Source: Arenibacter sp. ARW7G5Y1 (GTDB lineage Bacteria > Bacteroidota > Bacteroidia > Flavobacteriales > Flavobacteriaceae). From it: 64,000 nt of DNA. Below the pieces are notes generated by a model. The model was not told the origin of the DNA. It saw only the letters and a list, made by a program, of their open reading frames with translations, and ran no database searches. Every line of letters starts with the position of its first letter. Position 1 is the first letter of the stretch. Both the position numbers and the translations under genes were made by a program. Of the stretch, positions 31,699-49,064 are shown in pieces. The DNA is taken from assembly GCF_003201775.1 (NCBI RefSeq), contig NZ_QJJZ01000010.1:67899-131898 (forward strand). Reading direction: 5' to 3'.

Positions 31699-31741
31699 TA
31701 AAATTATAGGAAGTGAAAAACCTGAACTATGACATTTATCA
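31699..31741 (-). promoter_or_regulatory. FNR-type promoter of usp
   Basis: Box read toward the gene: TGATA-AA-TGTCA (31741-31730), centre 31735.5. The -7 element TAATTTTA (31706-31699) begins 29.5 bp from the centre, the same distance as at the four other FNR-type promoters of this window. Confidence 0.75.
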
Positions 31742-31917
31742 GCTTTTTGCATGGATCCACCACCACAAAAAAACTTGTGGGTTGTCCATGTAGCAAGGTT
31801 AGATGTAACTGTTTATACGCTATAAAATGAAGAAATAAGACTCATAAGTCCAAGTGAAATTTTGGGAACCCAACAATGCCAACTACAATAGGGTAAAAGG
31901 AAAGACAAACCTTGGCG

Positions 31918-32604
31918 TCAACATCCCTTTGCCACCTGCCCCAGGGCCTTTCTGTCCGCTATGGCAACTTTCTTTCCATTGGCATTTATCAGCCCCAGTT
32001 TTTTGAATTCTGAAATAATTCGGATGGCAGATTCTGTGGCCGTACCAACTACATTGGCTATATCTTCCCTGGACAATGTTAAGGCCAAATAGCCGTTCTT
32101 ATCATTGCCGAAATTTTCCTCCAAATAAATAAAGGCCTCTGCTATCCTCTGCTTTACAGTTTTTTGGGACATATTAACTATAACATCATCTGCCTCCTTT
32201 AAGTCGTGTGCAATATGCCTCAAAACTTCCACGGCAAAATTGGGATTACTGTTTAATGTATCTACTATAGCATCCTTAGGAATAAAACAGACCTCCATAT
32301 CATTAACTGCAATTGCACTTAAGTTGGCCACTTCTTCGGTAATCACGGAACGCTGACCCAAAACCGCACCTTTGGTTGCCAGTTTTACTATTTGATCTTT
32401 GCCGTTGGGACTTAATTTGGACAACTTGGAAACCCCATCCCTCACACAGTATACACCATTGAGCTTATCTCCTTCCCCAAAAATAATTTCCCCTTTTTTT
32501 AAAAATTTGGTAGTTTTAGTATCTGAAACCCTCTTCAATTCTTCCTTGTTCATTGCGCGCAAGGAATTGAATTGGCGAATAATACAATTTTCACATCTGC
32601 CCAT
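31918..32604 (-). CDS. Crp/Fnr family regulator, FNR-like
   Basis: 228 residues when started at the ATG 32604. A cyclic-nucleotide-like beta barrel (about 20-125) is followed by a long helix and a C-terminal helix-turn-helix (LSREDIANVVGTATESAIRII). Four cysteines (C4, C7 in CENC, C53, C106) could hold an Fe-S cluster, as in FNR. The Glu-x3-Arg in TESAIR matches the Glu and Arg that contact DNA in Crp/Fnr, while the FNR Ser is Ile. An earlier TTG at 32664 is excluded because it lies inside the FNR box upstream of the inferred transcription start. Divergent from ccoI. Confidence 0.9.
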   Translation of the reverse strand: MGRCENCIIRQFNSLRAMNKEELKRVSDTKTTKFLKKGEIIFGEGDKLNGVYCVRDGVSKLSKLSPNGKDQIVKLATKGAVLGQRSVITEEVANLSAIAVNDMEVCFIPKDAIVDTLNSNPNFAVEVLRHIAHDLKEADDVIVNMSQKTVKQRIAEAFIYLEENFGNDKNGYLALTLSREDIANVVGTATESAIRIISEFKKLGLINANGKKVAIADRKALGQVAKGC

Positions 32605-32627
32605 ATATTCACAATTACCTGATGTGA

Positions 32628-32701
32628 CAAATTTAAAGGTTATATCTTGGGAAAAAACTGACAATTGTCATGTTTTGGGATGGCAATCGGGGCCATCTTT
32701 G
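32628..32701. promoter_or_regulatory. Shared FNR box with divergent fnr and ccoI promoters
   Basis: Perfect palindrome TGACAATTGTCA at 32659-32670 (centre 32664.5). On the plus side the -7 element CATCTTTG starts at 32694 (29.5 bp away); on the minus side TAAATTTG starts at 32635 (29.5 bp away). One symmetric site thus sits at the same class-II-like distance (about -41) from both promoters, so the regulator should activate ccoI and its own gene together. Confidence 0.85.
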
Positions 32702-32726
32702 CAACCAGGTATTAAGCAAATAATCT

Positions 32727-35108
32727 ATGGATAAAGTAACTTGCTATCACTGTGGTGACGATTGCGGGAAAACTCCCATAAATCACGATGATAAAAACTT
32801 TTGTTGTGTTGGCTGCAAAACTGTCTATGAGATTTTTGCCAATAACGACCTATCCTACTATTACGACCTTCAGTCGGCAGCAGGTGCCTCTCCCTCGGAA
32901 ATTGAAGGTAAGTACGACTTTCTGGAATCCACGGACATTATAGAAAAACTTATAGAGTTCAACGACCATGGTATCCAAATCATAAATTTATACATCCCTC
33001 ATATACACTGTAGTTCCTGTATCTGGATATTGGAAAATCTAAATAAGCTAAACGCTGGTATCAATAGTTCGCAGGTAGACTTCCCTAAAAAGACCGTTAG
33101 GGTCACTTATAATTCTGACAGGATTTCCCTTAAGGAATTGGTGCTCCTAATATCTAGAATTGGATATGAACCCTACATTTCCTTGGATGACTATGACAAA
33201 AAGAAAAAAGGCATAAACCGTAGTTTATCCTATAAATTGGGCATTGCCGGTTTTGCTTTTGGAAATGTAATGTTTCTTTCCTTTCCAGAATATTTTGAGG
33301 TGGGGGAATTTTGGCTGGATCAATTTAAAGGGGTCTTTAGATGGCTAATGTTTGCCTTTTCCCTGCCAGTAGTTTTCTATGCTGCCCAAGATTATTTTAT
33401 TTCGGCATACAAGGGATTGAGATCTGGGTTCCTAAATATAGATATCCCAATTGCATTGGGCATTTTGGTGCTGTTCCTTCGGAGTACCGCTGAAATTATT
33501 TTCGATTGGGGGTCGGGTTTTTTCGACAGCCTTACGGGCTTGGTCTTCTTTTTGCTTTTAGGTAAATTCTTTCAACAAAAAACGTATTCCTATCTATCTT
33601 TTGAACGGGATTACAAATCCTACTTTCCTATAGCCGTTACCAGAATAACAACTAACAATACCGAGGAGAACATACAGGTTTACGACATAACAAGTGGGGA
33701 TAGACTCCTAATAAGAAGTGGGGAATTAATTCCGGTGGATGGTATTCTTATCAATGGGAATGCAAGAATAGATTACAGTTTTGTAACTGGCGAATCGGAA
33801 CCAGTAGACAAAAAATCCGGCGATAAAGTTTATGCCGGCGGACGACAGTTGAGCAGCGCTATTGAAATTGAGACCTTAAAATCTGTTTCCCAGAGTTACC
33901 TAACTCAACTTTGGAGCAACGCTGTTTTCCAACAGGATAAATCGGGGAGCTTTCAAACCTTGACAGATAGTATAGGCAAAAGATTTACCATAGCCGTACT
34001 GACCATTGCTTTCGTCTCAGCTATCATATGGTTAATAATAGATCCTAGTAAAACAATAAATGTATTTACCGCTGTACTCATTATTGCCTGCCCTTGTGCC
34101 ATTGCCTTGGCCGCTCCTTTTACCTTGGGCAATATGTTACGAATTTTTGGCCGCCACGGCTTTTACCTTAGGGACACCCAGACCATAGAACAACTGGCAC
34201 AGATAGATACCGCCATTTTTGATAAAACAGGCACTATTACGACCGCCGAAAAGGGACATGTGTACTATGAGGGATTGGAATTGACCAGTGCGGAAGAGTC
34301 TCTTTTAAAAAACACCCTACGTTCTTCCAATCACCCATTAAGCAGAAAGCTTTACGATATGTTGGCAGAACAAAACATTGTGCCACTGGAAGAATATGAA
34401 GAATATCTGGGCCAGGGGATTAAAGGGTCAACAGTTACGGATAGCATTAAAATTGGTTCGGCGGCCTTTGTCGGCAATACCGAAACAGACAATACGGAAA
34501 ACACCTCGGTACACTTTAGCACCAACGATCAATACAAGGGCTGTTTTGTTTTTCAGAACCAATATCGGGATGGGGTGGGGGAAACTTTCCATACAATGTC
34601 CAAAGATTTGGAATTGGCAATTCTTTCGGGCGACAACGCTGGCGAAAAATCCAATCTGACCAAATTATTGCCAAAAGGGACCCCTTTATATTTTAATCAA
34701 AAACCGGATAGCAAACTCCAATTTATAAAGTCGCTCCAAGATCAAAATAAAAAAGTTATGATGGTGGGTGACGGACTAAATGACGCCGGAGCCTTGGCAC
34801 AAAGTAATGTAGGCATAGCCATTTCCGAAAATGTAAATGTTTTTTCCCCCGCCTGTGATGGTATTCTGGATGCCAAAAATTTCAAATCCCTTTACCAATA
34901 TATTCTGGCTTCAAGAAAAGCCATTAAGATCATAAAACTTAGTTTCATGCTTTCCCTGATGTACAACCTAGTGGGATTGTACTTTGCGGTTACCGGACAA
35001 TTGGAACCCGTAATTGCGGCCATTCTAATGCCATTAAGCTCTATCAGCATCGTTGTATTCACCACCGTGGCAACAAACCTTCTAGGTAGAAAACTAGTGT
35101 GGAAATAG
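32727..35108 (+). CDS. ccoI: Heavy-metal P-type ATPase CcoI (copper to cbb3 oxidase)
   Basis: 793 residues. N-terminal zinc-ribbon-like region (CYHCGDDC ... CCVGCKTVYE), then a metal-binding domain with HCSSCIWILENL, then the P1B-ATPase core: CPC ligand in IIACPCAIALAAP, phosphorylation DKTGTIT, and the hinge GDGLNDAGAL. CcoI/FixI proteins load copper for assembly of the cbb3 oxidase whose subunits are encoded at 38257-41740. It ends at a strong hairpin terminator shared with the convergent cytochrome gene. Confidence 0.95.
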   Translation: MDKVTCYHCGDDCGKTPINHDDKNFCCVGCKTVYEIFANNDLSYYYDLQSAAGASPSEIEGKYDFLESTDIIEKLIEFNDHGIQIINLYIPHIHCSSCIWILENLNKLNAGINSSQVDFPKKTVRVTYNSDRISLKELVLLISRIGYEPYISLDDYDKKKKGINRSLSYKLGIAGFAFGNVMFLSFPEYFEVGEFWLDQFKGVFRWLMFAFSLPVVFYAAQDYFISAYKGLRSGFLNIDIPIALGILVLFLRSTAEIIFDWGSGFFDSLTGLVFFLLLGKFFQQKTYSYLSFERDYKSYFPIAVTRITTNNTEENIQVYDITSGDRLLIRSGELIPVDGILINGNARIDYSFVTGESEPVDKKSGDKVYAGGRQLSSAIEIETLKSVSQSYLTQLWSNAVFQQDKSGSFQTLTDSIGKRFTIAVLTIAFVSAIIWLIIDPSKTINVFTAVLIIACPCAIALAAPFTLGNMLRIFGRHGFYLRDTQTIEQLAQIDTAIFDKTGTITTAEKGHVYYEGLELTSAEESLLKNTLRSSNHPLSRKLYDMLAEQNIVPLEEYEEYLGQGIKGSTVTDSIKIGSAAFVGNTETDNTENTSVHFSTNDQYKGCFVFQNQYRDGVGETFHTMSKDLELAILSGDNAGEKSNLTKLLPKGTPLYFNQKPDSKLQFIKSLQDQNKKVMMVGDGLNDAGALAQSNVGIAISENVNVFSPACDGILDAKNFKSLYQYILASRKAIKIIKLSFMLSLMYNLVGLYFAVTGQLEPVIAAILMPLSSISIVVFTTVATNLLGRKLVWK

Positions 35109-35155
35109 CCATCCGGACCACAACTTTTGGGGTAGATCATAATTAATAATTACGC

Positions 35156-35190
35156 AAAAAGGGCAACTGATGCAAGACAGTTGCCCTTTT
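35156..35190. terminator. Bidirectional intrinsic terminator
   Basis: AAAAAGGGCAACTG, an 8-nt loop, then CAGTTGCCCTTTT: a ten-pair stem with A runs on the left and T runs on the right, so it works on both strands for convergent ccoI and the cytochrome c gene. Confidence 0.9.
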
Positions 35191-35222
35191 CCGATATAAG
35201 AACTAAGTTATTTTAACTTTCC

Positions 35223-37871
35223 TTATTTCTGTTGCTCCAAATACGCTACCAAAGAAGCCATTTCCTCATAACTAAGGGCATTCACCAAACCGGAAGGCAT
35301 CATTGAGGTCTCCAACTCCTTTCTTTCGGCTATATCGGATTTTTTTAATTGGGTAGCTATACCTGCAATATTTCTTATGGTCAGGTCAGTGGCAGATTCC
35401 TGGGTTACAAAGCCCACATAATTATCGCCTCCCTTGGTCTGTATCTGTACCGTTGAAAATCCTTGGGAAATGGAGGCATTAGGTTTCAAAATAGACTCAG
35501 CAATCTGCTCCCGGTTCATAATGGAACCTATTTGCCCCATAAATGGACCTTTCATTACTTCTCCAGAAGATACACTGTGACAGGTAAAACATGCCTGATT
35601 CTTAAAAATCTCCTTGCCTTTTTCCGGATTTCCCTTAATCTTTTTCAAGGCGATCATAATATCTTCAATAGAAGCTTCCCCAATCTGCCCTTTTTTGTTT
35701 TTAATCTTTTCCAGATCCACGGCCGGCATATCTTCCTTGGGAGCTGTTAATTCCACTGTACCAAAATCATCTATCGACAACCTATACTTACTGTTCAGCG
35801 CTGCATATAATTCCTTTCCTTCTTCTGGAGCTTTTTCCCATTCTCCCTTTAAAAACGAACGTATCACCGGAGTGTATTCCCATTCTACCGTTTTATAATA
35901 AGGGCCATGGGTGTCCGGACGGGTACTCCACCACCAGGAAGTATCATAAGGCGCCTCTTTGTGGTAAATACGCGCCAAGGTATTAATGATTTTATTCTTA
36001 AAATCTACATCGTCCGTATTTTCATAGGCCTTTATCAGTCCATCAACAGCCTTGGGGTTATGCATATATCGCATTGCCCAAAGGGCCATATCCCTTTGAT
36101 CGGTATCCAAGGCACTTACACAGGCGTCCACAGCATCTAATTTAACCAATGCCTTGACCGCTAAATGTGGAACAACAATTTCCGCATTTGGCCTGGCATG
36201 AGGACCTTCCTTCCCTATTTCTGGAGCAATAAATGAATTTGGCACTGGAATCTCCAATAAATCATTGGCAACTTCCTTTTTCCCCAATCTGCCCAAACCA
36301 ACAATGGCAGCTGCCTTTACCCGGTCGGAATCGGACTTCAGGGCATTTACAAATGGCTCCGTAGGCACTTTTTCTATGGTCCCCAAACGGTCCGATAAGG
36401 CCCTTAGTGCAAACTCCTGAACTTGTGGATCTTCTGTCAGCGACACCAAGCGATCTACTCCCTTGTCCCCCGACAATTGGGCGAAAGTGAATATAGCTGC
36501 GGCGCGTACTTCCAAAGACAATGTATTGTCTTCTGCCAATTGCCATACCTTATCGGCCCCTTTTCCTCTTTTGATCAATTCATATTGGGCACTTAGACGT
36601 GTCTTGGCATTACCTGCCTTTAATAAATCTACCAAACTACTGGTCCAGTAAAAATCCTCTAAATTAGGGAATGGTTCATAGTTATAATCTTCGGGCACCA
36701 CCCTCACAACATAGCCTTTATCCGGACTTCCTGAATATCCTGCACCATCCCAAGCCGAAAGATACATGGCTCCTGCAGCATCTACATCCACGTCGGTTAT
36801 TTGTGGCAGTTGGATAAACTCTTCTTCATCCTGAATAAAACTGGCCTTATTTTCGGTAAGCCTATGAAAGTACAGGTAGCTTCTACCCCAATCGGCCATC
36901 ATGGGAACATTGTTGTATTTTTCTGGCCAACGGCTGTCGTTCATATAAAGTGATCCTGTTCCGGATCCACCACCAACATCCACCAGGGCAGGAAGGATCT
37001 CTTCGGTAAAATGTTTGAACAACACAGGATAACCATATTCCCCTGTTTGTATCTGATGTATAAATCTAATATTCCATCCCCCTCCATCATTGGTATTCCC
37101 TCTGGTGTAAATATTCATGAAAGGGTCAATGGCCACGTCGTAAATATTTCTCAGTCCATGGGTGTACACTTCCATTTCGGTTCCATCCGGCCTTACTCGC
37201 AAAACACCTCCGCCCAACATGGTCAATTGTGTTCCATCACGATCTGTGGCGTTGTGAAAACCAAAGTCGCCCACAGCAATATATATCCATCCATCTATAC
37301 CCATCTGAATCCCGTTGGTTGCATGATCGGTTCCTCTCTCTGCTAGGTATTTGGAATTGCTCAAATTCTTTATTAAAACCTTGGCGGGACCATCGGCCAC
37401 TCCATCCTTGTCCACATCTTCAAATACCACCAAGTCCATATTAAAAGCCTTTCCTGTTTCGGGGGAAAAAGTGGTATGCAGTACAAATACCTCATCCCCT
37501 ATGGCCAAAATACCCCGAGGATTATCCACTTGGGCAAATTCGGTGTACGAATCCATAATGCCATCATGGTTGCAATCAACCAAACGCTTTATAAACCCTT
37601 TGTTCTTTTCCTTCCCCAGGGAGCCCATCATATCTACCCCCACATAGACCTCCCCTGTAGCTGCAACGGCCATACAGGCAGGGCTTGGGGTTAGTTCAGG
37701 GCCGGAGAAGCCAGTTATTTTTAAATCCTTTGGCCAATTTAAAACCTGTGCCAAAGAATCCGACGAGGGATAAGTAATCACCTCGGTACTTGGATTACAT
37801 GGGGCCTCCCCGTGTTTACAACTTAAAACCATCAAACTTAAAATTAAAATAAAGCCTGCCTTTTTAAACAT
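35223..37871 (-). CDS. PVC-type cytochrome c dehydrogenase with HEAT repeats (lipoprotein)
   Basis: 882 residues. Lipoprotein signal with C18 (MVLSC). A beta-propeller of the glucose/sorbosone dehydrogenase type covers about 50-400 (GVDMMGSLG, GLRNIYDVAIDPFMNIYTR), HEAT-like helical repeats about 410-690 (AAAIFTFAQLSGDKGVDRLV), and a C-terminal c-type cytochrome with heme motif CFTCH and distal Met in SMMPSG. This plan fits periplasmic quinone- or sugar-linked dehydrogenases found in planctomycetes and Bacteroidota. Its place between ccoI and ccoS suggests electron delivery to the cbb3 oxidase; no FNR box precedes it. Confidence 0.85.
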   Translation of the reverse strand: MFKKAGFILILSLMVLSCKHGEAPCNPSTEVITYPSSDSLAQVLNWPKDLKITGFSGPELTPSPACMAVAATGEVYVGVDMMGSLGKEKNKGFIKRLVDCNHDGIMDSYTEFAQVDNPRGILAIGDEVFVLHTTFSPETGKAFNMDLVVFEDVDKDGVADGPAKVLIKNLSNSKYLAERGTDHATNGIQMGIDGWIYIAVGDFGFHNATDRDGTQLTMLGGGVLRVRPDGTEMEVYTHGLRNIYDVAIDPFMNIYTRGNTNDGGGWNIRFIHQIQTGEYGYPVLFKHFTEEILPALVDVGGGSGTGSLYMNDSRWPEKYNNVPMMADWGRSYLYFHRLTENKASFIQDEEEFIQLPQITDVDVDAAGAMYLSAWDGAGYSGSPDKGYVVRVVPEDYNYEPFPNLEDFYWTSSLVDLLKAGNAKTRLSAQYELIKRGKGADKVWQLAEDNTLSLEVRAAAIFTFAQLSGDKGVDRLVSLTEDPQVQEFALRALSDRLGTIEKVPTEPFVNALKSDSDRVKAAAIVGLGRLGKKEVANDLLEIPVPNSFIAPEIGKEGPHARPNAEIVVPHLAVKALVKLDAVDACVSALDTDQRDMALWAMRYMHNPKAVDGLIKAYENTDDVDFKNKIINTLARIYHKEAPYDTSWWWSTRPDTHGPYYKTVEWEYTPVIRSFLKGEWEKAPEEGKELYAALNSKYRLSIDDFGTVELTAPKEDMPAVDLEKIKNKKGQIGEASIEDIMIALKKIKGNPEKGKEIFKNQACFTCHSVSSGEVMKGPFMGQIGSIMNREQIAESILKPNASISQGFSTVQIQTKGGDNYVGFVTQESATDLTIRNIAGIATQLKKSDIAERKELETSMMPSGLVNALSYEEMASLVAYLEQQK

Positions 37872-38194: not shown

Positions 38195-38237
38195 TGACAA
38201 ATGTCATATTATACCACACTCCCCATGTTTAGTTTTA
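38195..38237 (+). promoter_or_regulatory. FNR-type promoter of the cco operon
   Basis: Box TGACA-AA-TGTCA at 38195-38206 (centre 38200.5); -7 element TAGTTTTA at 38230-38237, 29.5 bp from the centre. Start of ccoS is at 38257. Confidence 0.8.
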
Positions 38238-38256
38238 CGCCCAAATTCAGGTAGGT

Positions 38257-38463
38257 ATGAGTGTAATTTATTTATTGCTGTCATTGAGTATTATTGTAGC
38301 CGTCATTTTTTTTGCGGCTTTTATTATTGCCACCAAGAATGGTCAATATGATGATTCCTATACCCCATCCGTTCGCATGCTTTTTGAAGATGAACTCGTA
38401 AAAAGCACTACTGCGGACACCAAAAAAATATCTAACCAAAAAAGTGAAAGTCAAAAATTGTGA
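38257..38463 (+). CDS. ccoS: cbb3-type oxidase assembly protein CcoS
   Basis: 68 residues with one membrane helix (about 4-26) followed by KNGQYDDSYTPSVRMLFEDE, the conserved CcoS segment. It is needed for cofactor insertion into the cbb3 oxidase. First gene of the cco operon behind the FNR box; the stop codon lies just before the ccoNO start. Confidence 0.93.
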   Translation: MSVIYLLLSLSIIVAVIFFAAFIIATKNGQYDDSYTPSVRMLFEDELVKSTTADTKKISNQKSESQKL

Positions 38464-38465
38464 TT

Positions 38466-40667
38466 ATGGAAGTACAACAGTTTTATTACGATAATAAAAT
38501 CGTAAAAAAATTCCTTTATGCTACTATGTTTTGGGGAATTGTAGGAATGTCGGTAGGCTTATTGCTTGCCTTTATGTTTCTTTTTCCAAATTTAACCGAT
38601 GGAATATCCTGGTTGAGTTTTGGCCGATTAAGGCCCTTGCACACCAACGCGGTTATATTTGCCTTTGTGGGAAATGCCATTTTTGCGGGTGTTTATTATT
38701 CTACCCAACGGTTGTTAAAGGCGAGGATGTTCAGCGATGCCCTAAGTAATTTTAATTTTTGGGGGTGGCAGGCCATCATAGTGGCGGCTGCAATCACCTT
38801 ACCCTTGGGATACACCTCTTCCAAAGAATATGCCGAATTGGAATGGCCTATAGATTTGGCCATTGCAGTGGTATGGGTAGCCTTTGGCTGGAACCTTATC
38901 GGGACCATGCTAAAAAGAAGACAACGCCATTTATACGTGGCCATTTGGTTTTATCTGGCAACATTTGTAACCGTAGCAGTACTACATATCTTCAATAGTC
39001 TTGCCCTTCCCGTTAGTGCCTTAAAAAGTTATTCGGTTTATGCAGGAGTGCAGGATGCCTTGGTTCAATGGTGGTATGGACACAATGCCGTTGCCTTCTT
39101 CCTTACCACACCTTTCCTAGGTTTAATGTACTACTTTGTGCCGAAAGCGGCCAATAGGCCTATATACTCCTATCGATTATCCATTGTACACTTCTGGTCC
39201 TTGATATTCATCTATATCTGGGCCGGACCGCACCATTTATTATATTCTACTTTACCGGAATGGGCCCAAAATTTAGGGGTAGCCTTCTCCATAATGTTGA
39301 TTGCCCCATCCTGGGGAGGTATGATCAATGGACTTTTAACTTTGCGTGGAGCATGGGACAAGGTAAGGACAGACCCGGTTTTGAAATTTATGGTAGTAGC
39401 TATAACCGGTTACGGTATGGCCACTTTTGAAGGCCCAATGCTTTCCCTGAAAAATGTAAATGCCATAGCACATTTTAGCGATTGGATTATTGCACACGTA
39501 CACGTTGGAGCCTTGGCATGGAACGGATTCCTGACTTTTGGGATGATCTACTGGTTGGTTCCAAAAATGTTCAAAACAAGGTTGCACTCACTTCCCATGG
39601 CCAATTTCCATTTCTGGATAGGGACATTAGGAATCATACTCTATGCACTTCCCATGTATGTTGCCGGTTTTACCCAAGCATTAATGTGGAAAGAATTTAA
39701 CCCTGATGGAACCTTGGCTTATGGTAACTTTTTGGAGACTGTAAATGAAATTATTCCCATGTACTGGATGAGGGCCATTGGTGGCACCATGTATATTATT
39801 GGGGCAATTGTCATGATATACAACGTAGTTGTAACCATTAAACACGGTACAAAGGTAAAGGATGAATTGGCAGAAGCGGCCGCATTGACCAACGTATCCA
39901 AGAAAAGAACCGCTGGAGAAACTTTCCACACTTGGTTGGAGCGTAAACCCATTCAATTGACAATTTTGGCCACCATTGCCATTCTAATAGGGGGAATAAT
40001 CCAAATTGTCCCCACTATTTTGGTAAAATCGAATATTCCAACCATTAGCAGTGTTAAACCCTATACACCTTTGGAATTGGAAGGTAGGGATTTATATATC
40101 AGGGAAGGCTGTGTTGGCTGTCATTCCCAAATGGTAAGGCCATTCCGAAGTGAGGTAGAGCGTTATGGCGAATACTCCAAGGCAGGGGAATATGTATATG
40201 ACCATCCTTTCCTTTGGGGAAGTAAGCGTACCGGGCCCGATCTTTTAAGGGTAGGCGGCAAATATTCGGACAACTGGCATTTAAACCATATGTACGACCC
40301 TCAAAGTACTTCTTCCGGATCTATCATGCCATCTTATTCATGGTTGGTGCGCAATAGGCACGACAGAAGTAATATCCAAACAAAAATGGAGACCATGGTT
40401 ACCCTAGGGGTTCCATATACCGAGGAGGAGATTGCCAATGCCGAACAAGCTATGGATGAGCAAGCAAGCAAAATAGAAAAAAACCTATACTCCGATCCGG
40501 ATTTCGCCAAAGGATATGAAGAGGACAAAAAATATGCTGCCGAAAATGGAGAGGAATTCATAGAAATGAAGGATAGGGAAATTGTAGCTATGATAGCCTA
40601 TCTGCAACGTCTGGGAACAGATATAAAAATAAAGGAAACGGACGAAATAATTTCACAAAACAAATAA
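38466..40667 (+). CDS. ccoNO: Fused cbb3 oxidase subunits I and II (CcoN-CcoO)
   Basis: Catalytic subunit and cytochrome subunit of the cbb3 oxidase in one polypeptide. The CcoN part (to about residue 480) carries heme/copper ligands in GHNAVAFF, IWAGPHHLLYS and HVHVGALAWNG over about 12-13 helices. A linker and one more helix lead to the CcoO cytochrome c domain with GCVGCHSQMVRPF near 545. ATG 38466 is preferred to the GTG 38460, which lies inside the ccoS stop region. The fusion is common in Bacteroidota. Reduces oxygen at the membrane at low oxygen tension. Confidence 0.95.
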   Translation: MEVQQFYYDNKIVKKFLYATMFWGIVGMSVGLLLAFMFLFPNLTDGISWLSFGRLRPLHTNAVIFAFVGNAIFAGVYYSTQRLLKARMFSDALSNFNFWGWQAIIVAAAITLPLGYTSSKEYAELEWPIDLAIAVVWVAFGWNLIGTMLKRRQRHLYVAIWFYLATFVTVAVLHIFNSLALPVSALKSYSVYAGVQDALVQWWYGHNAVAFFLTTPFLGLMYYFVPKAANRPIYSYRLSIVHFWSLIFIYIWAGPHHLLYSTLPEWAQNLGVAFSIMLIAPSWGGMINGLLTLRGAWDKVRTDPVLKFMVVAITGYGMATFEGPMLSLKNVNAIAHFSDWIIAHVHVGALAWNGFLTFGMIYWLVPKMFKTRLHSLPMANFHFWIGTLGIILYALPMYVAGFTQALMWKEFNPDGTLAYGNFLETVNEIIPMYWMRAIGGTMYIIGAIVMIYNVVVTIKHGTKVKDELAEAAALTNVSKKRTAGETFHTWLERKPIQLTILATIAILIGGIIQIVPTILVKSNIPTISSVKPYTPLELEGRDLYIREGCVGCHSQMVRPFRSEVERYGEYSKAGEYVYDHPFLWGSKRTGPDLLRVGGKYSDNWHLNHMYDPQSTSSGSIMPSYSWLVRNRHDRSNIQTKMETMVTLGVPYTEEEIANAEQAMDEQASKIEKNLYSDPDFAKGYEEDKKYAAENGEEFIEMKDREIVAMIAYLQRLGTDIKIKETDEIISQNK

Positions 40668-40670
40668 GTT

Positions 40671-40865
40671 ATGCTAAAATTTGTAAAAGGTTATATGGAG
40701 AGTATAGATGGCGTTGCCACCTATCCCATGATATCACTGCTAATCTTCTTTTTGTTTTTCACCATTCTTTTCTGGTGGGTATTTTCTGCCTCTAAGGAAC
40801 ATATCAAGGAAGTTAGCGAAATACCATTAGAAACAGAAAACCAACCTAAAGAAGAATCGTTATGA
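40671..40865 (+). CDS. ccoQ: cbb3 oxidase subunit CcoQ
   Basis: 64 residues with one membrane helix (about 21-41, MISLLIFFLFFTILFWWVF) and a short acidic tail. Its size and place between ccoNO and ccoP identify CcoQ, which stabilises the complex. Ends by overlapping the ccoP start by 4 bp (ATGA). Confidence 0.88.
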   Translation: MLKFVKGYMESIDGVATYPMISLLIFFLFFTILFWWVFSASKEHIKEVSEIPLETENQPKEESL

Positions 40866-41740
40866 GAAATATGTCACCTTGGTGGATAAGAGTCCCCCTA
40901 ATCTTTTTCCTAATCTTCGGATTGATGGAGTATTTTATTGACTCCGGGGACAAACCAGCATTTATTGAATATCCTATCACCCTGTTTTTTATGTTGATGG
41001 TGTTGTTCCTCTTGATCGGAATTGAACTGATTCTAAAATCCGTGGAGAACGTAATGTTCCAAACCCTATCCCCCGATGCACAAAAGCGATATTTGGAAGC
41101 TAAATCGGAGCAATGGGAGTGGAAATGGGGCAAAGCCTTTTGGAAAAAAATTACTGGAAACAAAGCTGTTGAAGAAGAAAAGGAGATTATCCTGGACCAC
41201 AATTACGACGGAATCCGTGAATTGGACAACAATCTTCCGCCCTGGTGGGTGTACATGTTCTATGGCACCATTATTTTTGCCGTGGTTTATTTAGCGCGTT
41301 TTCACGTTTTTAATGACTACACCCAGGACATGGAATACGAACAGGAAGTAGCCGAAGCCCAAATAGCCATTGAAGCGTATAAAAAAACTGCAAAAGGTTT
41401 AGTCGATGCCAACACAGTGGAACTATTGACCGAAGCCTCCGATATTAAGGCAGGCGGGGCAATATACAGTGCCAATTGTGTAGCTTGCCATATGCCGGAC
41501 GGCGGTGGCGGTATTGGGCCAAATCTTACCGACGAATACTGGATTTTGGGAGGTGGCATAAAAAACGTTTTCCATACCATTTCAGAAGGTGGAAGGGACG
41601 GAAAGGGAATGATAGCTTGGAAGCAGACCCTAAAGCCAGTCGAAATAGCTCAGGTAGCCAGCTATATTCTCAGCGAAATAAATGGCAAGGCCCCTGCCAA
41701 CCCAAAGGCAGCGGAGGGAGAAATTTGGACAGGGGAGTAA
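40862..41740 (+). CDS. ccoP: cbb3 oxidase cytochrome c subunit CcoP (mono-heme)
   Basis: 292 residues. Two N-terminal hydrophobic stretches (about 10-60), a third helix (about 121-140, PPWWVYMFYGTIIFAVVYL), then a single cytochrome c domain with CVACHMPDGGGGIGPNL. Proteobacterial CcoP has two heme motifs; only one CxxCH is present here, as is usual in Bacteroidota. It supplies electrons to CcoNO. Ends 69 bp before ccoG. Confidence 0.93.
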   Translation: MRNMSPWWIRVPLIFFLIFGLMEYFIDSGDKPAFIEYPITLFFMLMVLFLLIGIELILKSVENVMFQTLSPDAQKRYLEAKSEQWEWKWGKAFWKKITGNKAVEEEKEIILDHNYDGIRELDNNLPPWWVYMFYGTIIFAVVYLARFHVFNDYTQDMEYEQEVAEAQIAIEAYKKTAKGLVDANTVELLTEASDIKAGGAIYSANCVACHMPDGGGGIGPNLTDEYWILGGGIKNVFHTISEGGRDGKGMIAWKQTLKPVEIAQVASYILSEINGKAPANPKAAEGEIWTGE

Positions 41741-41809
41741 ATTCCTAAAATTCAATATGGAGCACAAATTAAGGCATACACATAATTCCAAAAAAAGCAT
41801 TACATAGAA

Positions 41810-43228
41810 ATGGCACAGGACCAGGACAATTTTAGGGATTCCATAGGAACTATAAATGAAGATGGGAAAAGGGCTTGGATATTTCCGAAAAAGCCTAGTG
41901 GCAAGTTTTATGAATATCGCAAATATGTGAGTTATGTACTTTTGGCCTTTCTCTTTCTAGCTCCCTTTGTAAAAGTAAACGGCAACCAGTTCCTAATGTT
42001 CAATGTGCTGGAAAGGCGTTTTAATATTTTTGGATTCCCTTTTTGGCCGCAGGATTTTCATCTTTTTGTAATTTCAATGATTATCGGGGTAATATTCATA
42101 GCCCTATTTACAGTTGCTTTTGGACGAATTTTTTGTGGCTGGATGTGTCCCCAAACCATCTTTATGGAAATGGTATTCAGAAGGATCGAATTTTGGATCG
42201 ATGGTGATCGTGGTGCCCAAATACGTCTTAGCAAACAGCCTTGGAACGCGGAGAAGATTAGGAAACGTGGCCTGAAACTAATTGTCTTTTTCTTTATTTC
42301 CTTTTTGATAGCCAATGTATTCCTAGCTTATCTAATAGGAAGTGACCGATTGATAGAATATATCACCGATGGCCCTTTACAACATGTAAGTACCTTGGTA
42401 TCGCTTCTAATTTTTACAGCGGTATTCTATTTTGTATTTGCCTGGTTTAGGGAACAAGTATGTATAATAGCCTGCCCCTATGGAAGGATGCAAGGCGTAC
42501 TTCTGGACAATAAATCCATTGTGGTGGCCTATGACCATAAGCGGGGGGAAGCTGAAAACGGCAGGAAAAAGTTTAGAAAAGGAGAGGACAGGCAAGCCCT
42601 GGGACATGGCGACTGCATTGATTGTTTCCAATGTGTAAATGTCTGCCCTACCGGTATAGACATAAGAAATGGGACCCAACTGGAATGCGTCAATTGTACC
42701 GCTTGTATTGATGAATGCGACACCATAATGGAAAAGGTAAACCTTCCCAAAGGACTTATCCGCTATGCCAGTGAAGACAATATTGAGAAAAAGTCCAAGT
42801 TCAAATTTACGCCCAGATTAAAAGGGTACACTGCGGTACTAGTGATACTTACTGGAATTTTGATCGGAATGCTGTTTTTGCGAAATGAAGTGGAGGCAAA
42901 TATATTAAGACTACCAGGACAACTTTACGAGCACAAGGAAAACAATATCATTAGCAACGTTTATACTTATAAATTGGTCAACAAAACCACCAAGGACATA
43001 CCTAACGTAAGCTTTAAGTTAATCTCCCACAAAGGGACCATCAATCTGGTTAGGCATGAACTATTTACAGTACCGGCTCAAGGATTGGCGGAAGGCACCC
43101 TTTTTGTGGAAATAAATAATTCGGCTTTGGAGGGCGACAAGAACAAATTAAGTATTGGTGTCTATAGCGGGGATAAATTAATTGAAACGGCTACGGCCAG
43201 ATTTTTAGCTCCAAGAAGCTATAAATAA
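41810..43228 (+). CDS. ccoG: Cytochrome oxidase accessory Fe-S protein CcoG (RdxA/FixG)
   Basis: 472 residues, about five membrane helices, with a CGWMCPQ motif and two [4Fe-4S] ferredoxin motifs: CIDCFQCVNVCP and CVNCTACIDEC. The C-terminal 110 residues form an Ig-like domain. CcoG is a copper(II) reductase acting in cbb3 assembly. It is followed 79 bp later by the FixH gene. Confidence 0.95.
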   Translation: MAQDQDNFRDSIGTINEDGKRAWIFPKKPSGKFYEYRKYVSYVLLAFLFLAPFVKVNGNQFLMFNVLERRFNIFGFPFWPQDFHLFVISMIIGVIFIALFTVAFGRIFCGWMCPQTIFMEMVFRRIEFWIDGDRGAQIRLSKQPWNAEKIRKRGLKLIVFFFISFLIANVFLAYLIGSDRLIEYITDGPLQHVSTLVSLLIFTAVFYFVFAWFREQVCIIACPYGRMQGVLLDNKSIVVAYDHKRGEAENGRKKFRKGEDRQALGHGDCIDCFQCVNVCPTGIDIRNGTQLECVNCTACIDECDTIMEKVNLPKGLIRYASEDNIEKKSKFKFTPRLKGYTAVLVILTGILIGMLFLRNEVEANILRLPGQLYEHKENNIISNVYTYKLVNKTTKDIPNVSFKLISHKGTINLVRHELFTVPAQGLAEGTLFVEINNSALEGDKNKLSIGVYSGDKLIETATARFLAPRSYK

Positions 43229-43307
43229 AATAAAAAGGATAGGTTAAATACCTGAAAAGCGAATAGATTTTCCATTCCAATGGAAAGTGAAACTAAAGGA
43301 AGAAGCT

Positions 43308-43766: not shown

Positions 43767-43803
43767 AAAGTATTAACACCACAAAGGTCAATACCTTTAA
43801 ACT

Positions 43804-44505
43804 ATGTTGCTATCTGCCGTAATTTTGGGATTAATGGGAAGCTTTCACTGCGTGGGAATGTGCGGTCCCATAGCCTTTATGTTACCGGTAGACCACCATA
43901 AACCCGCCAAAAAATTAATACAGGTTTTTCTCTACCACATGGGGAGACTTACATCCTATGGCATTCTTGGGCTGATTTTTGGGTTTTTGGGCAAAGGGCT
44001 ATATGTCTTCGGCCTACAGCAAAAGCTTTCCATAATCATTGGAATCCTAATGATCGTCATCATCCTCATTCCTCACAAGACATTTGGCAAATACAATTTC
44101 TCCCAACCCATTTATTCCTTTTTGACCAAAATAAAAAGCCGGCTTGGAAAGGAACTACAAAAAAAGAGTCCGGACACCTTTATCACCATTGGCTTCTTGA
44201 ACGGATTACTGCCCTGTGGATTGGTTTATATGGCTCTATTTGGCAGCATTGCCACTGCCAACCCCTGGCTTGGCGCATTGTTCATGGTTTTATTTGGTGT
44301 GGGGACCATACCCTTAATGACCACTGCCGTTTACTTTGGCAGTTTGTTAAAAGGCCCAGCTAAAAAATCGGTTCAACGACTAATCCCTGTATTCGTAATC
44401 CTAGTAGGGCTGCTATTCATAATAAGGGGATTGGGACTCGGAATTCCCTATATTTCTCCAGAACCCATTACGGAGGTAGTTAGCAGTAATCTGGAATGCC
44501 AATAA
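43804..44505 (+). CDS. Sulfite exporter TauE/SafE-like membrane protein (CcoH-associated copper family)
   Basis: 233 residues, about six membrane helices with HCVGMCGP near the N terminus and a matching LLPCGLVYMALFG in the second half, a repeated Cys motif. Family members accompany cco gene clusters in Bacteroidota and are thought to help cytochrome oxidase biogenesis, perhaps through copper. Last gene of the cco cluster, 37 bp after ccoH. Confidence 0.88.
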   Translation: MLLSAVILGLMGSFHCVGMCGPIAFMLPVDHHKPAKKLIQVFLYHMGRLTSYGILGLIFGFLGKGLYVFGLQQKLSIIIGILMIVIILIPHKTFGKYNFSQPIYSFLTKIKSRLGKELQKKSPDTFITIGFLNGLLPCGLVYMALFGSIATANPWLGALFMVLFGVGTIPLMTTAVYFGSLLKGPAKKSVQRLIPVFVILVGLLFIIRGLGLGIPYISPEPITEVVSSNLECQ

Positions 44506-44649
44506 AAGCCCCATCCACCAACCTCACTTCCGATTTGTAGTACTTGTAAAAATAACGTATTTTTCTAGTGCACAGGAATCCCTGTTCATGTACATTAGGG
44601 ATTAAAGTGAACAATGGCCAACTAGCAACCAGACCTTAAACAACTACCA

Positions 44650-45519
44650 ATGAAAAAAGTTATACTTCTCTGTTATCTTATTTTAAATGCAACCTTATTA
44701 TTTTCCCAAGGGGAAAAGGTCAACATAATAGTCTTTGGAGCCCATCCAGACGATTGTGACATTGACACGGGTGGCACCGCCATTTTACTCGCAAAAATGG
44801 GCCACAATGTAAAGTTTGTATCCTTGACCAACGGTGATGCCGGACATTATGCCATGGGAGGCGGTGAGCTTGCCAAGGTTAGGATTGCGGAGGCCGAGGA
44901 AGCGGGCAAAAGATTTGGGGTTACCTATACTGTCCTGGACAACCACGATGGGGAGTTGATGCCAACTTTGGAAAATCGGCTTAAGGTGATACGTGAAATT
45001 AGAAAATGGAAGGCCGACGTGGTCATTGCCCCCAGACCCAATGATTATCATCCAGACCACAGGTATACGGGAGTTTTGGTACAGGATGCCGCCTATATGG
45101 TTATAGTTCCCAATGTAGCCCCTGAAGTACCCCCGCTCCAAAAAAATCCGGTTTTTCTTTATTCGGAAGATAGTTTTCAAAAACCCAGCCCATTCGAACC
45201 CGACATTGCAGTAATCATCGATTCTGTTTTTGATCAAAAAGTGTATGCCATGTCCGCACATAAATCCCAATTCTTTGAATGGCTTCCATGGACTTCAGGT
45301 AATTTGGAGAAAGTGCCAAAGGACGATCAGGGCAGATTGGAAATGTTGGCCAATTGGAGGTCTCAGCCTCCCAAGGAAGCCCTATTGAAATGTGCTGCAA
45401 AATGGTACGGAACCAAAGCTTCCAGTGCCAATCATATAGAGGGTTTTGAAATATGCGAGTATGGCAAACAACCCACCGATGATGAGATTAGGACCCTTTT
45501 CCCAATGCTTAAAAAATAG
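44650..45519 (+). CDS. PIG-L family deacetylase, exported
   Basis: 289 residues; signal peptide (about 1-19, ending LLFSQG) and a zinc-dependent LmbE/PIG-L domain with AHPDDCDIDTGG and HPDHRYTG. Relatives remove acetyl from N-acetylglucosamine-containing molecules; the exported form might act on glycans. It may be functionally tied to the convergent amidohydrolase, whose gene begins its 3' end 28 bp away. Confidence 0.9.
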   Translation: MKKVILLCYLILNATLLFSQGEKVNIIVFGAHPDDCDIDTGGTAILLAKMGHNVKFVSLTNGDAGHYAMGGGELAKVRIAEAEEAGKRFGVTYTVLDNHDGELMPTLENRLKVIREIRKWKADVVIAPRPNDYHPDHRYTGVLVQDAAYMVIVPNVAPEVPPLQKNPVFLYSEDSFQKPSPFEPDIAVIIDSVFDQKVYAMSAHKSQFFEWLPWTSGNLEKVPKDDQGRLEMLANWRSQPPKEALLKCAAKWYGTKASSANHIEGFEICEYGKQPTDDEIRTLFPMLKK

Positions 45520-45521
45520 GA

Positions 45522-45539
45522 CGGAATGTTATTATTCCG
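45522..45539. terminator. Possible weak bidirectional terminator
   Basis: CGGAAT-GTTATT-ATTCCG hairpin in the 28-bp gap between two convergent genes. There is no strong T tail, so support is modest. Confidence 0.35.
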
Positions 45540-45547
45540 GTGTTTGA

Positions 45548-46615
45548 CTACTCCAGTATCTTTTTGGCGTTATCGCTGTATATTTTCTTCAACACCTCAT
45601 CACTAAGGCCCAGCCCGTTAAACGACCAATGATAGGAGGAAATATTCCTGTCATAAAAATGCTCATCCTCACTTTCCAGAATGCGAAATGTTAATTGATA
45701 CATATTGGGATCGGTACCCATATCGGTACCATAGACCAATTTATCCTGATACTTTTCATAAAAACGTTTTGTATAACGGGGAACGGCCGCCGTTTCCGCA
45801 TATCTGGCAGAAATGTCCGCGTACATATTATCATAGGTCCCCAAAAGCCTCCCTATGATATCCAAATCATAACTACAGTTGGCAAAGTGACAGGCTATAA
45901 AAGTGGTTTTTGGATTTTCCCTAACTGCATTTTCCAAAGCAGTAATTAGTTCCCCATGGGTCAACATCCCCTCCTTTTTGGTATCTATTCGCCATTTGTA
46001 GGCGTTCATCAACCCGTCATTATGGACATCCATGGGCTCATACATCCACATGGGGTCCGCAACATGGATACTCACTGGCATGCCCAGTTCCCCACATTTC
46101 TCCCAGAGGGGCCTCATCCTTAGATCATCCGCATGCATTCCTTTTGCCGGTGTAGGCTTGGAGTAAAAAAAACCAACACCCTTATCTCCCAATTCACCAA
46201 CCCCTCTTGCTCCTTTCTCAAAACATCTTTCCAACTCCTTTACGGCACGCTTGCTCCAGCCTTTTTCTTCATAACCTGTAAAATCAAAGCCGCACCAAAG
46301 TTCAAAACGATCCCCATATTTGGAATAAAGATCAACAATACTGTCAAAAGACTTCCCCGTCCGATAGGTAAGAACAATAGATTTCACAATTCCTGCCCGG
46401 TCCATTGTCTTTACCCATTCACCTATTTCTTGTTCCGATTTGGGATAAGGATGTGAATGAAAATCCACCACGGGAAATTTAGCTTTGGAGATGGTGGTCT
46501 TAGGGGTGTTATAAATGGATATTGGTTCGTAATCCTTTAAAAGCATATCTTCTTGTGCTTTAACCAAAGTAGTACTAAAAGCAGCGAATAAAAAAATGAT
46601 GTGGTAAATTTTCAT
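45548..46615 (-). CDS. Exported amidohydrolase-family protein
   Basis: 355 residues; signal peptide (about 1-20, ending LVKAQE), then a TIM-barrel amidohydrolase: VDFHSHPYP supplies the HxH metal site, HVADPMWMYEP and ACHFANCSYDLD provide further His, and YGTDMGTDPN the final Asp. Most similar in layout to amidohydrolase-2 proteins (decarboxylase or lactonase type). Substrate unknown. Confidence 0.85.
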   Translation of the reverse strand: MKIYHIIFLFAAFSTTLVKAQEDMLLKDYEPISIYNTPKTTISKAKFPVVDFHSHPYPKSEQEIGEWVKTMDRAGIVKSIVLTYRTGKSFDSIVDLYSKYGDRFELWCGFDFTGYEEKGWSKRAVKELERCFEKGARGVGELGDKGVGFFYSKPTPAKGMHADDLRMRPLWEKCGELGMPVSIHVADPMWMYEPMDVHNDGLMNAYKWRIDTKKEGMLTHGELITALENAVRENPKTTFIACHFANCSYDLDIIGRLLGTYDNMYADISARYAETAAVPRYTKRFYEKYQDKLVYGTDMGTDPNMYQLTFRILESEDEHFYDRNISSYHWSFNGLGLSDEVLKKIYSDNAKKILE

Positions 46616-46760
46616 ATCGAGGTTTAAGGCAATTGGGCCGTGATGGTTATCCCAAGTATGTCAAATATAATAATTTATGCTTTAGTTATTACCGGCAGGT
46701 CAACCAATCCTTGACACTTGGAATAATCGCCTTGGTCGTGTTCCTTGCCCTCATGATTCC

Positions 46761-47582
46761 CTAAATTTTAAAGGTGATAACGGGAATTTTTGAATGGTTG
46801 GTCACATCTTCCCCGATACTTCCCATCAAAAAGTGCGTCAATCCTTTTCTACCATGTGTGGGCAATCCTATTAAGTCGGCGTTCCTACTTTCGCCAAATG
46901 CCAATATTCCCCTCTCTACGCTATAGTCATTATAAATCTCTACTTCCAAACTGGCTTTGGCCAAATACAGGAATTTATTAATTTTTTTAAAGGCATCCTT
47001 GGTGCTCAGGAAATTATCGCCTGGTGTATTGACATATACCAAAATCAATTCAGCAGCAAGCTTATCCGCCAATTTCTTGGCCCGTTGAAAGGCCTCCAGG
47101 TTTTCCTTCTCAAAGTCACAGGCAAAAACAAATCTCTTTACCTCAAAGCCCTCTATATAATCCTTGATGACCAAAACAGGAATATTGGAATTTCTTACCA
47201 TTTTCTCAGCGTTGGAACCTACAAAAATCTCTTTGATTCCGTCAGTCCCTTGAGATCCCATTATAATTAGATCTGCCTGATGTTTTTCTGCTACGGCATT
47301 CACTTCGCTGTACACTTTATGATGTTTTACTATAGGCGTAATCTTGATTCCCTGCAGATATGGCTTTTCCAAAAATGTTTCAAATCTTTTTTCCGCCAAC
47401 CTTATTAAAAATAAGGCTTGCTCATAGTGCGCTTGCTCATTGGCAGAAATAAGGGCCTCCGACAATTCCAGCATATGCAGGACAAAAATTTCAGATCCAT
47501 ATTTTGTAGCAATGGAAGCGGCCGTTTTAAGGGCATTTTCAGATTGTTCTGAAAAATCGACGGGTACAATAATTTTTTTCAT
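46761..47582 (-). CDS. Universal stress protein, tandem UspA domains
   Basis: 273 residues: the first UspA fold KKIIVPVDFSEQSENA to GSQGTDGIKEIFVGSNA carries the nucleotide-binding Gly pattern; the second ends GLPTHGRKGLTHFLMGSIGE. It lies 53 bp downstream of hemN and probably shares its FNR-type promoter, making it the second Usp gene tied to this control circuit. Confidence 0.9.
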   Translation of the reverse strand: MKKIIVPVDFSEQSENALKTAASIATKYGSEIFVLHMLELSEALISANEQAHYEQALFLIRLAEKRFETFLEKPYLQGIKITPIVKHHKVYSEVNAVAEKHQADLIIMGSQGTDGIKEIFVGSNAEKMVRNSNIPVLVIKDYIEGFEVKRFVFACDFEKENLEAFQRAKKLADKLAAELILVYVNTPGDNFLSTKDAFKKINKFLYLAKASLEVEIYNDYSVERGILAFGESRNADLIGLPTHGRKGLTHFLMGSIGEDVTNHSKIPVITFKI

Positions 47583-47635
47583 AGGTTTATTTTTACTGAT
47601 TTTATTATCAAAGGGTTAAAAAATAGCCCGCACAA

Positions 47636-48997
47636 CTAAATGGTCATCGAAAACAATCTAGTTTCCGGTGCTTTGCGATGCAGGAACAAATCAAATGCCA
47701 TACAGACATTGCGTACAAAAGGCCTTCCTTTTTCGGTAACATAAATACCATTTGAAACCATTTCGACCAAGCCATCATGGGCCATTTCCTTGAGCTTATC
47801 CATGGCCTCATCCAATTCGTTAAACCTTTCCTTTTGCTTCTCCCAGCTAGTATTAAATTTACACATTAAATTTAAGATATGCCTACGAAGAACCCTGTCC
47901 TCTTCGGATAAAATGTGTCCTCTATAAATAGGTATGATCTTACTTTCCACTAGGTGGTGATACTCTTCCAGACTTTTTACATTTTGTGCAAAACTATCCC
48001 AACTATCACCTATACTGGAGATACCCAAACCAACCATAACCCTGGTCTTAGAGGCCGTATAACCCATAAAATTCCTATGTAAGCTTCCATGCTCCATTGC
48101 TTTAAAAAGCGAATCCGTCCTCAATGAAAAATGATCCATTCCTATTTCTTCATAACCTACCTCGGCCAACAATGTCTTCCCCATCCCATATTGCTCCCGC
48201 TTCTCCTCCGCAGTTGGCAAATCGGAATCCTTATACCCCCTTTGCCCATTACCCTTTAACCAAGGAACATGTGCATAACTATAAAAAGCCAATCGATCTG
48301 GCATCAATTCCTTGGTTTTTAGAATAGTTTCGGCAACATCATCCTTCGTTTGGAAGGGCAGGCCAAAAATTATATCATGCCCAACGGAAGTATATCCTAT
48401 TTCCCTGGCCCATTGGGTAACCTTTTTTACGTTTTCGAAAGGTTGTAGCCTGTGAATGGCGAGCTGAACCTTCTTATTATAATCCTGAACCCCATAACTA
48501 ACCCTTCTAAATCCTACATCGTAAAGTGCTTTTAGGTGTTCTTGGGTAGTATTGTTCGGATGTCCTTCAAAACTAAATTCATAATCATCCGCACGGCTGG
48601 CAGTGGTAAAAATACCATTGATAAGACGCGTTAAATTTTCCGGGGAGAAAAAAGTGGGCGTACCCCCCCCGAGATGAAGCTCTTTTATCCTTGGTTTCGT
48701 TTCGAATAAATCACAATAAAGCTTCCACTCCTTCAAGACATCACTTATATATGGGTTTTCAACTTCATGCCGTTTGGTAATTCTTTTATGACATCCGCAA
48801 AAAGTACAGAGACTCTCACAAAAAGGCAAATGTATATATAGGCTTATGCCTTCCTCTCCGTTACTTTCATTAAAATTTTTAATTAACGTATTCCGCCATT
48901 GATGGCCAGAGAAAGTGTCCAAATCCCAATACGGAACAGTAGGGTAACTGGTGTATCTGGGACCAGGGATATTGTATTTTTGTACTAGGTTGGTCAT
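47636..48997 (-). CDS. hemN: Oxygen-independent coproporphyrinogen III oxidase
   Basis: Makes protoporphyrinogen IX from coproporphyrinogen III without oxygen. Radical SAM motif CESLCTFCGCHK with the extra Cys, then GGGTPTFFS. 453 residues, as expected for true HemN (HemW at 7930 is shorter). An FNR-type promoter lies upstream, which fits a need for heme when oxygen is scarce. Confidence 0.95.
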   Translation of the reverse strand: MTNLVQKYNIPGPRYTSYPTVPYWDLDTFSGHQWRNTLIKNFNESNGEEGISLYIHLPFCESLCTFCGCHKRITKRHEVENPYISDVLKEWKLYCDLFETKPRIKELHLGGGTPTFFSPENLTRLINGIFTTASRADDYEFSFEGHPNNTTQEHLKALYDVGFRRVSYGVQDYNKKVQLAIHRLQPFENVKKVTQWAREIGYTSVGHDIIFGLPFQTKDDVAETILKTKELMPDRLAFYSYAHVPWLKGNGQRGYKDSDLPTAEEKREQYGMGKTLLAEVGYEEIGMDHFSLRTDSLFKAMEHGSLHRNFMGYTASKTRVMVGLGISSIGDSWDSFAQNVKSLEEYHHLVESKIIPIYRGHILSEEDRVLRRHILNLMCKFNTSWEKQKERFNELDEAMDKLKEMAHDGLVEMVSNGIYVTEKGRPFVRNVCMAFDLFLHRKAPETRLFSMTI

Positions 48998-49021
48998 AAG
49001 CTATGTTCTTTACAATAGCTA

Positions 49022-49064
49022 CAAAAATACTATTACACCGCCTGTAAAAATATGACACTTATCA
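49022..49064 (-). promoter_or_regulatory. FNR-type promoter of hemN
   Basis: Box read toward the gene: TGATA-AG-TGTCA (49064-49053), centre 49058.5. The -7 element TATTTTTG (49029-49022) begins 29.5 bp from the centre and is 25 bp from the start codon. Confidence 0.75.

Follow-up and report, generated by a model that had tools for sequence, protein, structure and literature searches.

A fixed 23-bp spacing between an FNR-like box and the promoter core marks a probable class II regulon in Arenibacter

A 64,000-nucleotide stretch of DNA from Arenibacter sp. ARW7G5Y1 (Bacteroidota, class Bacteroidia, family Flavobacteriaceae; contig NZ_QJJZ01000010.1, positions 67,899 to 131,898), referred to here as the window, carries five promoters (usp, fnr, ccoI, ccoS and hemN) in which a conserved box lies 23 base pairs (bp) from a -7 promoter element. 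These boxes are probably operators of a CRP/FNR-type class II activator working on sigma-A promoters, with the 228-residue FNR-like protein encoded among them as the chief regulator. The case is read from the sequence and is made up of the motif, its spacing, its conservation, the target genes, the link between site number and presence of the regulator, and the cysteine pattern of the regulator.

Boxes and promoter core elements at a fixed spacing

The predicted elements of the window are listed below, with each box sequence given as read toward its gene.

31730..31741, minus strand, activator box of usp, TGATAAATGTCA
31699..31706, minus strand, usp -7 element, TAATTTTA, 23 bp from the box
32659..32670, no strand, common box of the divergent fnr and ccoI genes, palindrome TGACAATTGTCA, used both ways
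32628..32635, minus strand, fnr -7 element, TAAATTTG
32694..32701, plus strand, ccoI -7 element, CATCTTTG, which starts with C instead of T
38195..38206, plus strand, activator box of the ccoS-cco operon, TGACAAATGTCA
38230..38237, plus strand, cco operon -7 element, TAGTTTTA
49053..49064, minus strand, activator box of hemN, TGATAAGTGTCA
49022..49029, minus strand, hemN -7 element, TATTTTTG

The first-pass annotation had placed boxes at 31730, 32659, 38195 and 49053 and the first base of each -7 element 29.5 bp from the box centre. On re-reading, the box coordinates and sequences were right, the distance was exact for all five promoters and the octamers were as given. Spacings of 10 to 40 bp were scanned with a -7 element defined by at least five of the six letters of TAnnTTTG; a -7 element appeared only at 23 bp, and there in all five promoters. 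A fixed distance from box to core suggests that a single activator acts from a set position. Work in E. coli places class II activators at -41.5. The sigma-A box TAnnTTTG of Flavobacterium psychrophilum occupies positions -12 to -5 (PMC9723704), and setting the first -7 base at -12 puts the box centre at -41.5, which agrees with the earlier estimate of about -41. The box centre and the fixed spacing to the core are thus those expected of a class II activator-dependent promoter. By arithmetic from the window, the predicted starts of the five promoters imply leaders about 15 to 44 bases long. The C-type -7 element of ccoI is perhaps a weak core that has been kept for strict activator dependence.

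A genome-wide scan for the box with its spacing had been named as the test of this geometry, and the enrichment is strong. TGAY-N4-RTCA followed by TAnnTTTR at spacings of 13 to 33 bp gave 62 rows, 36 of them at 23 bp; the other 26 were spread over 20 spacings (mean 1.3). Further annotation covered the rows at 23 bp. The Poisson tail for the excess at 23 bp is ~1e-38, and 32 of the 36 sites lie outside the window. The ccoI promoter, with its -7 element beginning with C, is absent from the 36. Taken alone, the box is poor evidence: the 5.73-Mb genome has 29 occurrences of TGAYANNTGTCA counted by strand compared with 13 of the reversed pattern, and a good -7 element at 23 bp accompanies only 10 of its 23 places, whichever direction is taken. 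What decides the matter is its coupling to the -7 element. On either strand, no site among the 32 outside the window falls within an open reading frame of at least 150 residues that starts in the stretch taken.

The same coupling is found in relatives, for which the best 80 of at least 552 loci with a regulator homolog were used. Nearly all are Flavobacteriaceae by title, and the nearest are Arenibacter, with regulator identity up to 95 per cent. Their 1.48 Mb hold 213 occurrences of the pattern at a spacing of 23 bp, at least one per locus, compared with a maximum of 12 at any of the other 39 spacings (5 to 44). The box and the -7 element are kept, and the spacer between them is mostly unconserved. 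Counted over the loci in which the gene was recognised, and with C allowed as the first -7 base, a site precedes usp in 77 of 77, ccoS in 71 of 72, ccoI in 65 of 80 and fnr in 50 of 80. In 59 of the 80 loci a single box is flanked on both sides by a -7 element at 23 bp. In every one of these 59, one element of the pair starts with C and its partner with T; in the window the C is on the ccoI side.

The rule extends to the class. In 149 genomes, 747 sites were found at 23 bp, distributed over 126 genomes, compared with 945 in total at ten control spacings (26-35), or 94.5 each. A protein search found a regulator homolog in 127 of the genomes, which carry 5.7 sites each (0.67 per control spacing); the 22 genomes without a homolog, two of them assigned from their absence in the table, carry 0.8 (0.44 per control spacing). 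The association between site number and homolog presence has p 8e-9, a value that is too optimistic because the genomes share kinship, and the control counts differ slightly as well (p 0.02). The refined box MTGAY-N4-RTCAK with the spacing gives 409 sites in 93 genomes, only 3 of these sites in the 22 homolog-free genomes, and its reversed pattern gives 6.

The base preceding the box is C in 197, A in 78, G in 5 and T in none of 280 relatives' sites, and A in 18, C in 14, G in 2 and T in 2 of the 36 Arenibacter sites; the base following the box mirrors it in both sets. The motif TGAYA-AN-TGTCA first proposed fits the window boxes and is too narrow for the wider set, which reads TGAY-N4-RTCA, usually preceded by A or C and followed by T or G. 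The recognised sequence had also been described as different from the proteobacterial FNR site TTGAT-N4-ATCAA. This holds for the outer base, for which 275 of 280 relatives' sites have A or C; the outer T of TTGAT is found in none of them and in two of the 36. It does not hold for the TGAY/RTCA core, which is common to FNR. TTGAY-N4-RTCAA with the spacing is a minority form and not absent, with 50 sites in 30 of the 149 genomes compared with 10 for the reversed pattern. Its occurrence in G041, G033, G024 and other genomes suggests minority lineages or regulators with FNR-like outer bases. Positions -33 to -30, just behind the box, are T-rich, clearly in relatives and less so in the Arenibacter set; this stretch may be a remnant of a -33 element.

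Target genes

The window genes near the boxes are as follows.

30748..31650, minus strand, usp, universal stress protein (Pfam PF00582, E 4e-20)
31918..32604, minus strand, FNR-like regulator of 228 residues (Pfam cNMP_binding and HTH_Crp_2)
32727..35108, plus strand, ccoI-type heavy-metal P-type ATPase, with a putative role in copper loading of the cbb3 oxidase
38257..38463, plus strand, ccoS (PF03597, scanned on a stretch two bases longer; TIGR00847 over cut-off)
38460..40667, plus strand, ccoNO fusion, cbb3 oxidase subunits I/II (NF011053, TIGR00780 and TIGR00781 over cut-off)
40862..41740, plus strand, ccoP-like cytochrome c subunit (TIGR00782, 108 bits, under the cut-off of 180)
41810..43228, plus strand, ccoG (TIGR02745 over cut-off)
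47636..48997, minus strand, hemN, oxygen-independent coproporphyrinogen III oxidase (TIGR00538 over cut-off, 436 bits)

The genes of the five promoters had been described as a low-oxygen set; the predicted regulon is larger than these five promoters. Family models identify ten universal stress proteins among the first genes behind the sites. The other targets include CcoS with the cbb3 operon, HemN, FNR itself, a copper nitrite reductase NirK with a cytochrome c domain, a separate cytochrome c, thioredoxin, an ArsC-like protein, ApbE, a cation ATPase, a PAS histidine kinase, patatin, YtxH, L,D-transpeptidase, an NAD(P)-dependent oxidoreductase, an alpha/beta hydrolase, DnaJ, and a pyridoxamine-phosphate-oxidase-like protein ahead of a PEP-utilising enzyme. 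Of thirty proteins encoded behind sites and searched (28 first and two second genes), seven had no family and one matched only families of unknown function. The target at C2:249659 had been considered as NosZ, which was rejected since family models identify it as the copper nitrite reductase NirK. No open reading frame was found behind the site at C1:133959. The genome has 25 Usp domain matches, grouped by position into about 18 proteins, and a strict site is present at about ten of these Usp genes.

The sites are unevenly distributed. Contig C9, only 4 per cent of the genome, holds 19 of the 36. A Usp-rich island at about 58-102 kb of this contig (loci L137-L139) contains 15 of the 36 strict sites together with two REC-Crp regulators, a PAS histidine kinase, a cation ATPase, thioredoxin and other genes.

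The 228-residue regulator and related Crp-type proteins

The regulator belongs to the CRP/FNR superfamily, with PF00027 and PF13545 both over cut-off, and lies outside the curated Fnr model NF008365 (106.8 bits compared with a cut-off of 228). Its best solved-structure match is 2gau (6e-26), followed by the FNR-type regulators 9qlt, 5cvr, 8qto and others (1e-23 to 9e-23). 2gau is a Crp/Fnr protein of Porphyromonas gingivalis, and 8QTO is the FNR of Aliivibrio fischeri (PMC12937710). The 2gau match starts at query residue 18 and does not include the CxxC motif.

The recognition helix of the regulator is GTATESAIR, and the Glu and Arg that go with a TGA core in FNR are present as E191 and R195 in all 80 close homologs. 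E. coli FNR likewise has the Glu and Arg of the recognition helix and acts from -41.5. By our alignment, E191 occupies the position of CRP residue 181, and the position of residue 180 is Thr (T190) in 78 of the 80. Residue 180 of CRP correlates with the outer base and residue 181 with the A of TGA (PMC1274295).

All 80 close homologs have Cys4, Cys7, Cys53 and Cys106, and so do the 30 loci that score best in the class survey, the Arenibacter genome included. The cluster ligands of FNR are numbered C20, C23, C29 and C122, and Cys4, Cys7 and Cys106 align with three of them. The FNR layout of three N-terminal cysteines and one central cysteine is not found here; Cys53 is present instead, and the C29 position is never Cys among the 80 homologs or the 30 loci. 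A set of 57 Crp-family proteins was obtained from 62 sequences by removal of two weakly aligned loci and three duplicates. Cys53 occurs in 34 of the 39 proteins with an N-terminal CxxC and in none of the 18 without it (Fisher p ~1e-10). The five CxxC proteins lacking Cys53 (L233, L227, L234, L243 and L244) all have a third cysteine close behind the CxxC; they are Bacteroidia Crp proteins with a layout closer to that of E. coli FNR. A simple swap of ligands is opposed by the 26 of 33 Cys53 proteins that have an additional cysteine no more than 18 residues from the CxxC, a count that omits one of the 34; no conserved further cysteine lies near the CxxC in the 80 close homologs. A structure model built on a 45-sequence alignment has a mean predicted local distance difference test score of 61.5, which is too poor to judge the distances from Cys53 to Cys4, Cys7 and Cys106.

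PF00325 detects three Crp-type helix-turn-helix proteins in the genome, the 228-residue protein and two on C9. Both of the latter are REC-cNMP-HTH fusions, with recognition helices GTATETAIR and GIATESLIR compared with GTATESAIR, and one is encoded directly behind the PAS kinase gene that has a box promoter. With helices so nearly identical, the 228-residue protein need not be the only owner of the boxes. This similarity and the gene order lead us to expect shared operators; the two REC-Crp regulators may share boxes with the FNR-like protein. At box position 5 the 36 Arenibacter sites have A in 17, C in 11, T in 7 and G in 1, and no separate site classes could be assigned to the three regulators.

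In the proposed mechanism, a dimer centred at -41.5 would touch RNA polymerase held at the -7 element TAnnTTTG and would take over from a weak -33 element. The 228-residue protein probably carries an oxygen-labile [4Fe-4S] cluster. Low oxygen would yield the active dimer, and its DNA binding and activation would switch on the cbb3 operon, the copper pump, oxygen-independent heme synthesis and its own gene, as well as nitrite reductase and many universal stress proteins. The two REC-Crp response regulators probably feed kinase signals into the same operators. The inferred oxygen control of the box promoters is in line with the rise of cbb3 oxidase and heme synthesis enzymes in F. psychrophilum under oxygen limitation (PMC9723704). 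A wider proposal is that the Bacteroidota have an oxygen-sensor branch of their own in which the third ligand is replaced by Cys53 of the beta-roll, which reads MTGAY-N4-RTCAK, has an operator pool in common with REC-Crp proteins, and lets oxygen and kinase signals meet at the -41.5 site throughout the class. We put this forward tentatively, as falling a little short of an even chance.

Alternative readings and known systems

Several observations weigh against the assignment of the boxes to an oxygen-responsive FNR-like activator. The residue at the position of the third N-terminal cluster cysteine (C29) is Asn in the regulator. Thirteen of the 23 TGAYANNTGTCA places lack a good -7 element at 23 bp in either direction, and a perfect TGACAATTGTCA palindrome upstream of cydAB (L146:3645-3656; cydAB by eye at 3732) has no -7 element at 23 bp toward those genes. 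This palindrome, ahead of the cytochrome bd oxidase genes, has a -7 element at 24 bp on the other strand. The strict pattern is passed by the fnr sites in 50 and the ccoI sites in 65 of the 80 relatives' loci, and these relatives are not independent samples. Nine of the loci have open reading frames labelled hemN on a loose score, none with an assigned site; a stricter hemN search of the 80 loci gave no match, so these nine may not be hemN. In G065 a hemN-like gene, recognised by eye, does lie behind a 23-bp site. Crp/Fnr homologs in Flavobacteriales bins were predicted to be MalR-like and carbon-sensing (PMC8510549). The helix-turn-helix models are not exhaustive, as PF00325 missed the FNR homolog of G065 and gave six matches in G021 compared with 15 for PF13545; further Crp-type proteins may therefore exist in the Arenibacter genome and in G134. 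The two REC-Crp regulators could own many of the sites.

That last point can be taken further, with the boxes as kinase-driven REC-Crp operators and the FNR-like protein as a minor player or one confined to its own neighbourhood. Both REC-Crp genes lie in the stretch of C9 at 61-102 kb that holds 15 of that contig's 19 sites, over half of the genome's 36 being on C9; their recognition helices barely differ from that of the FNR-like protein, and the box-bearing PAS kinase gene directly precedes one of them. Genome G134, of the same family, speaks against it. There a protein search and PF00325, the less sensitive helix-turn-helix model, each gave a single Crp-type protein, its FNR homolog, and similar genes still have sites. 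By eye, its six sites lie ahead of ccoN, NirK-like, cytochrome c-like, oxidoreductase-like and unknown genes, with one inside a gene. With one Crp-type protein found and sites at core genes, it is plausible that the FNR-like protein needs no partner to explain the core sites. The sites around fnr are also kept, at least one in each of the 80 Flavobacteriaceae loci, and we regard this REC-Crp reading as unlikely. Another reading has repressors acting at the sites, or an unrelated regulator of the palindrome; in its favour, the box alone is only about twofold over the reversed pattern, and one box lies between divergent genes, a layout common for repressors. A centre at -41.5 with fixed spacing is activator geometry, which a repressor does not need; site number tracks the FNR-like homolog, and Glu191 fits the A of the TGA core by the published residue-base correlation (PMC1274295). 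This explanation is very improbable. Since flavobacterial promoters are rich in AT and the -7 consensus has few letters, the spacing might be put down to chance or to a by-product of AT-rich intergenic DNA. Control spacings in the same DNA (36 compared with 1.3, 213 with at most 12, 747 with 94.5) refute chance and leave this account with practically no weight. The preferred reading, a probable one, is a class II activator of CRP/FNR type with the FNR-like protein as chief regulator.

The closest known systems share parts of this one. The gamma-proteobacterial FNR proteins of E. coli and A. fischeri resemble the regulator in sequence and in three of four cluster cysteines, and their sites have the TGAY-N4-RTCA core. 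Here, unlike in those proteins, the outer base is A or C and not T, the Cys29 position is Asn or another residue, Cys53 is conserved, and the promoter core is TAnnTTTG rather than TATAAT. The alpha-proteobacterial FNR core regulon, as for FnrL of Rhodobacter sphaeroides, uses the site TTGAT-N4-ATCAA and has in common with the present targets cbb3 oxidase, a metal P-type ATPase, RdxA/FixG, oxygen-independent coproporphyrinogen oxidase, UspA and fnr itself, often clustered on the chromosome (PMC2908626). It differs in that the window oxidase is a ccoNO fusion and that Usp proteins are far more numerous here. The delta-proteobacterial HcpR motif wyTTGACnnnnGTCAArw has TGAC-N4-GTCA in common with the boxes; it has an outer T/A and lies ahead of hcp and frdX, and the Bacteroides HcpR2 motif is GTAACnnnnGTTAC (PMC1274295). 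The HcpR, DNR and NnrR motifs (TTGACnnnnGTCAA, CTTGATnnnnATCAAG and TTGcgnnnncgCAA; PMC1274295) are not matched, the outer T/A being nearly absent here. PgRsp and Crp of P. gingivalis are likewise Crp/Fnr-family regulators of Bacteroidota; PgRsp is heme-binding and CooA-like and this Crp is described as ligand-independent, and the available portions of these papers do not mention the motif or the spacing (PMC6955866, PMC12040651). No paper on the motif, the fixed -7 spacing, the cysteine pattern or a flavobacterial FNR regulon was found in the open-licence PMC papers searched, as judged by title and start of abstract.

The rule MTGAY-N4-RTCAK, 22 bp, TAnnTTTR allows such a regulon to be read from sequence across the class with low background, and likewise the species in which nitrite reduction and stress proteins are linked to it. 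The Bacteroidota promoter core is unusual, and the geometry found here indicates that class II activation from -41.5 takes the same form with sigma-70 and with the sigma factor of Bacteroidota. The changed set of cysteines raises the biochemical question of how this FNR-like protein would hold its cluster.

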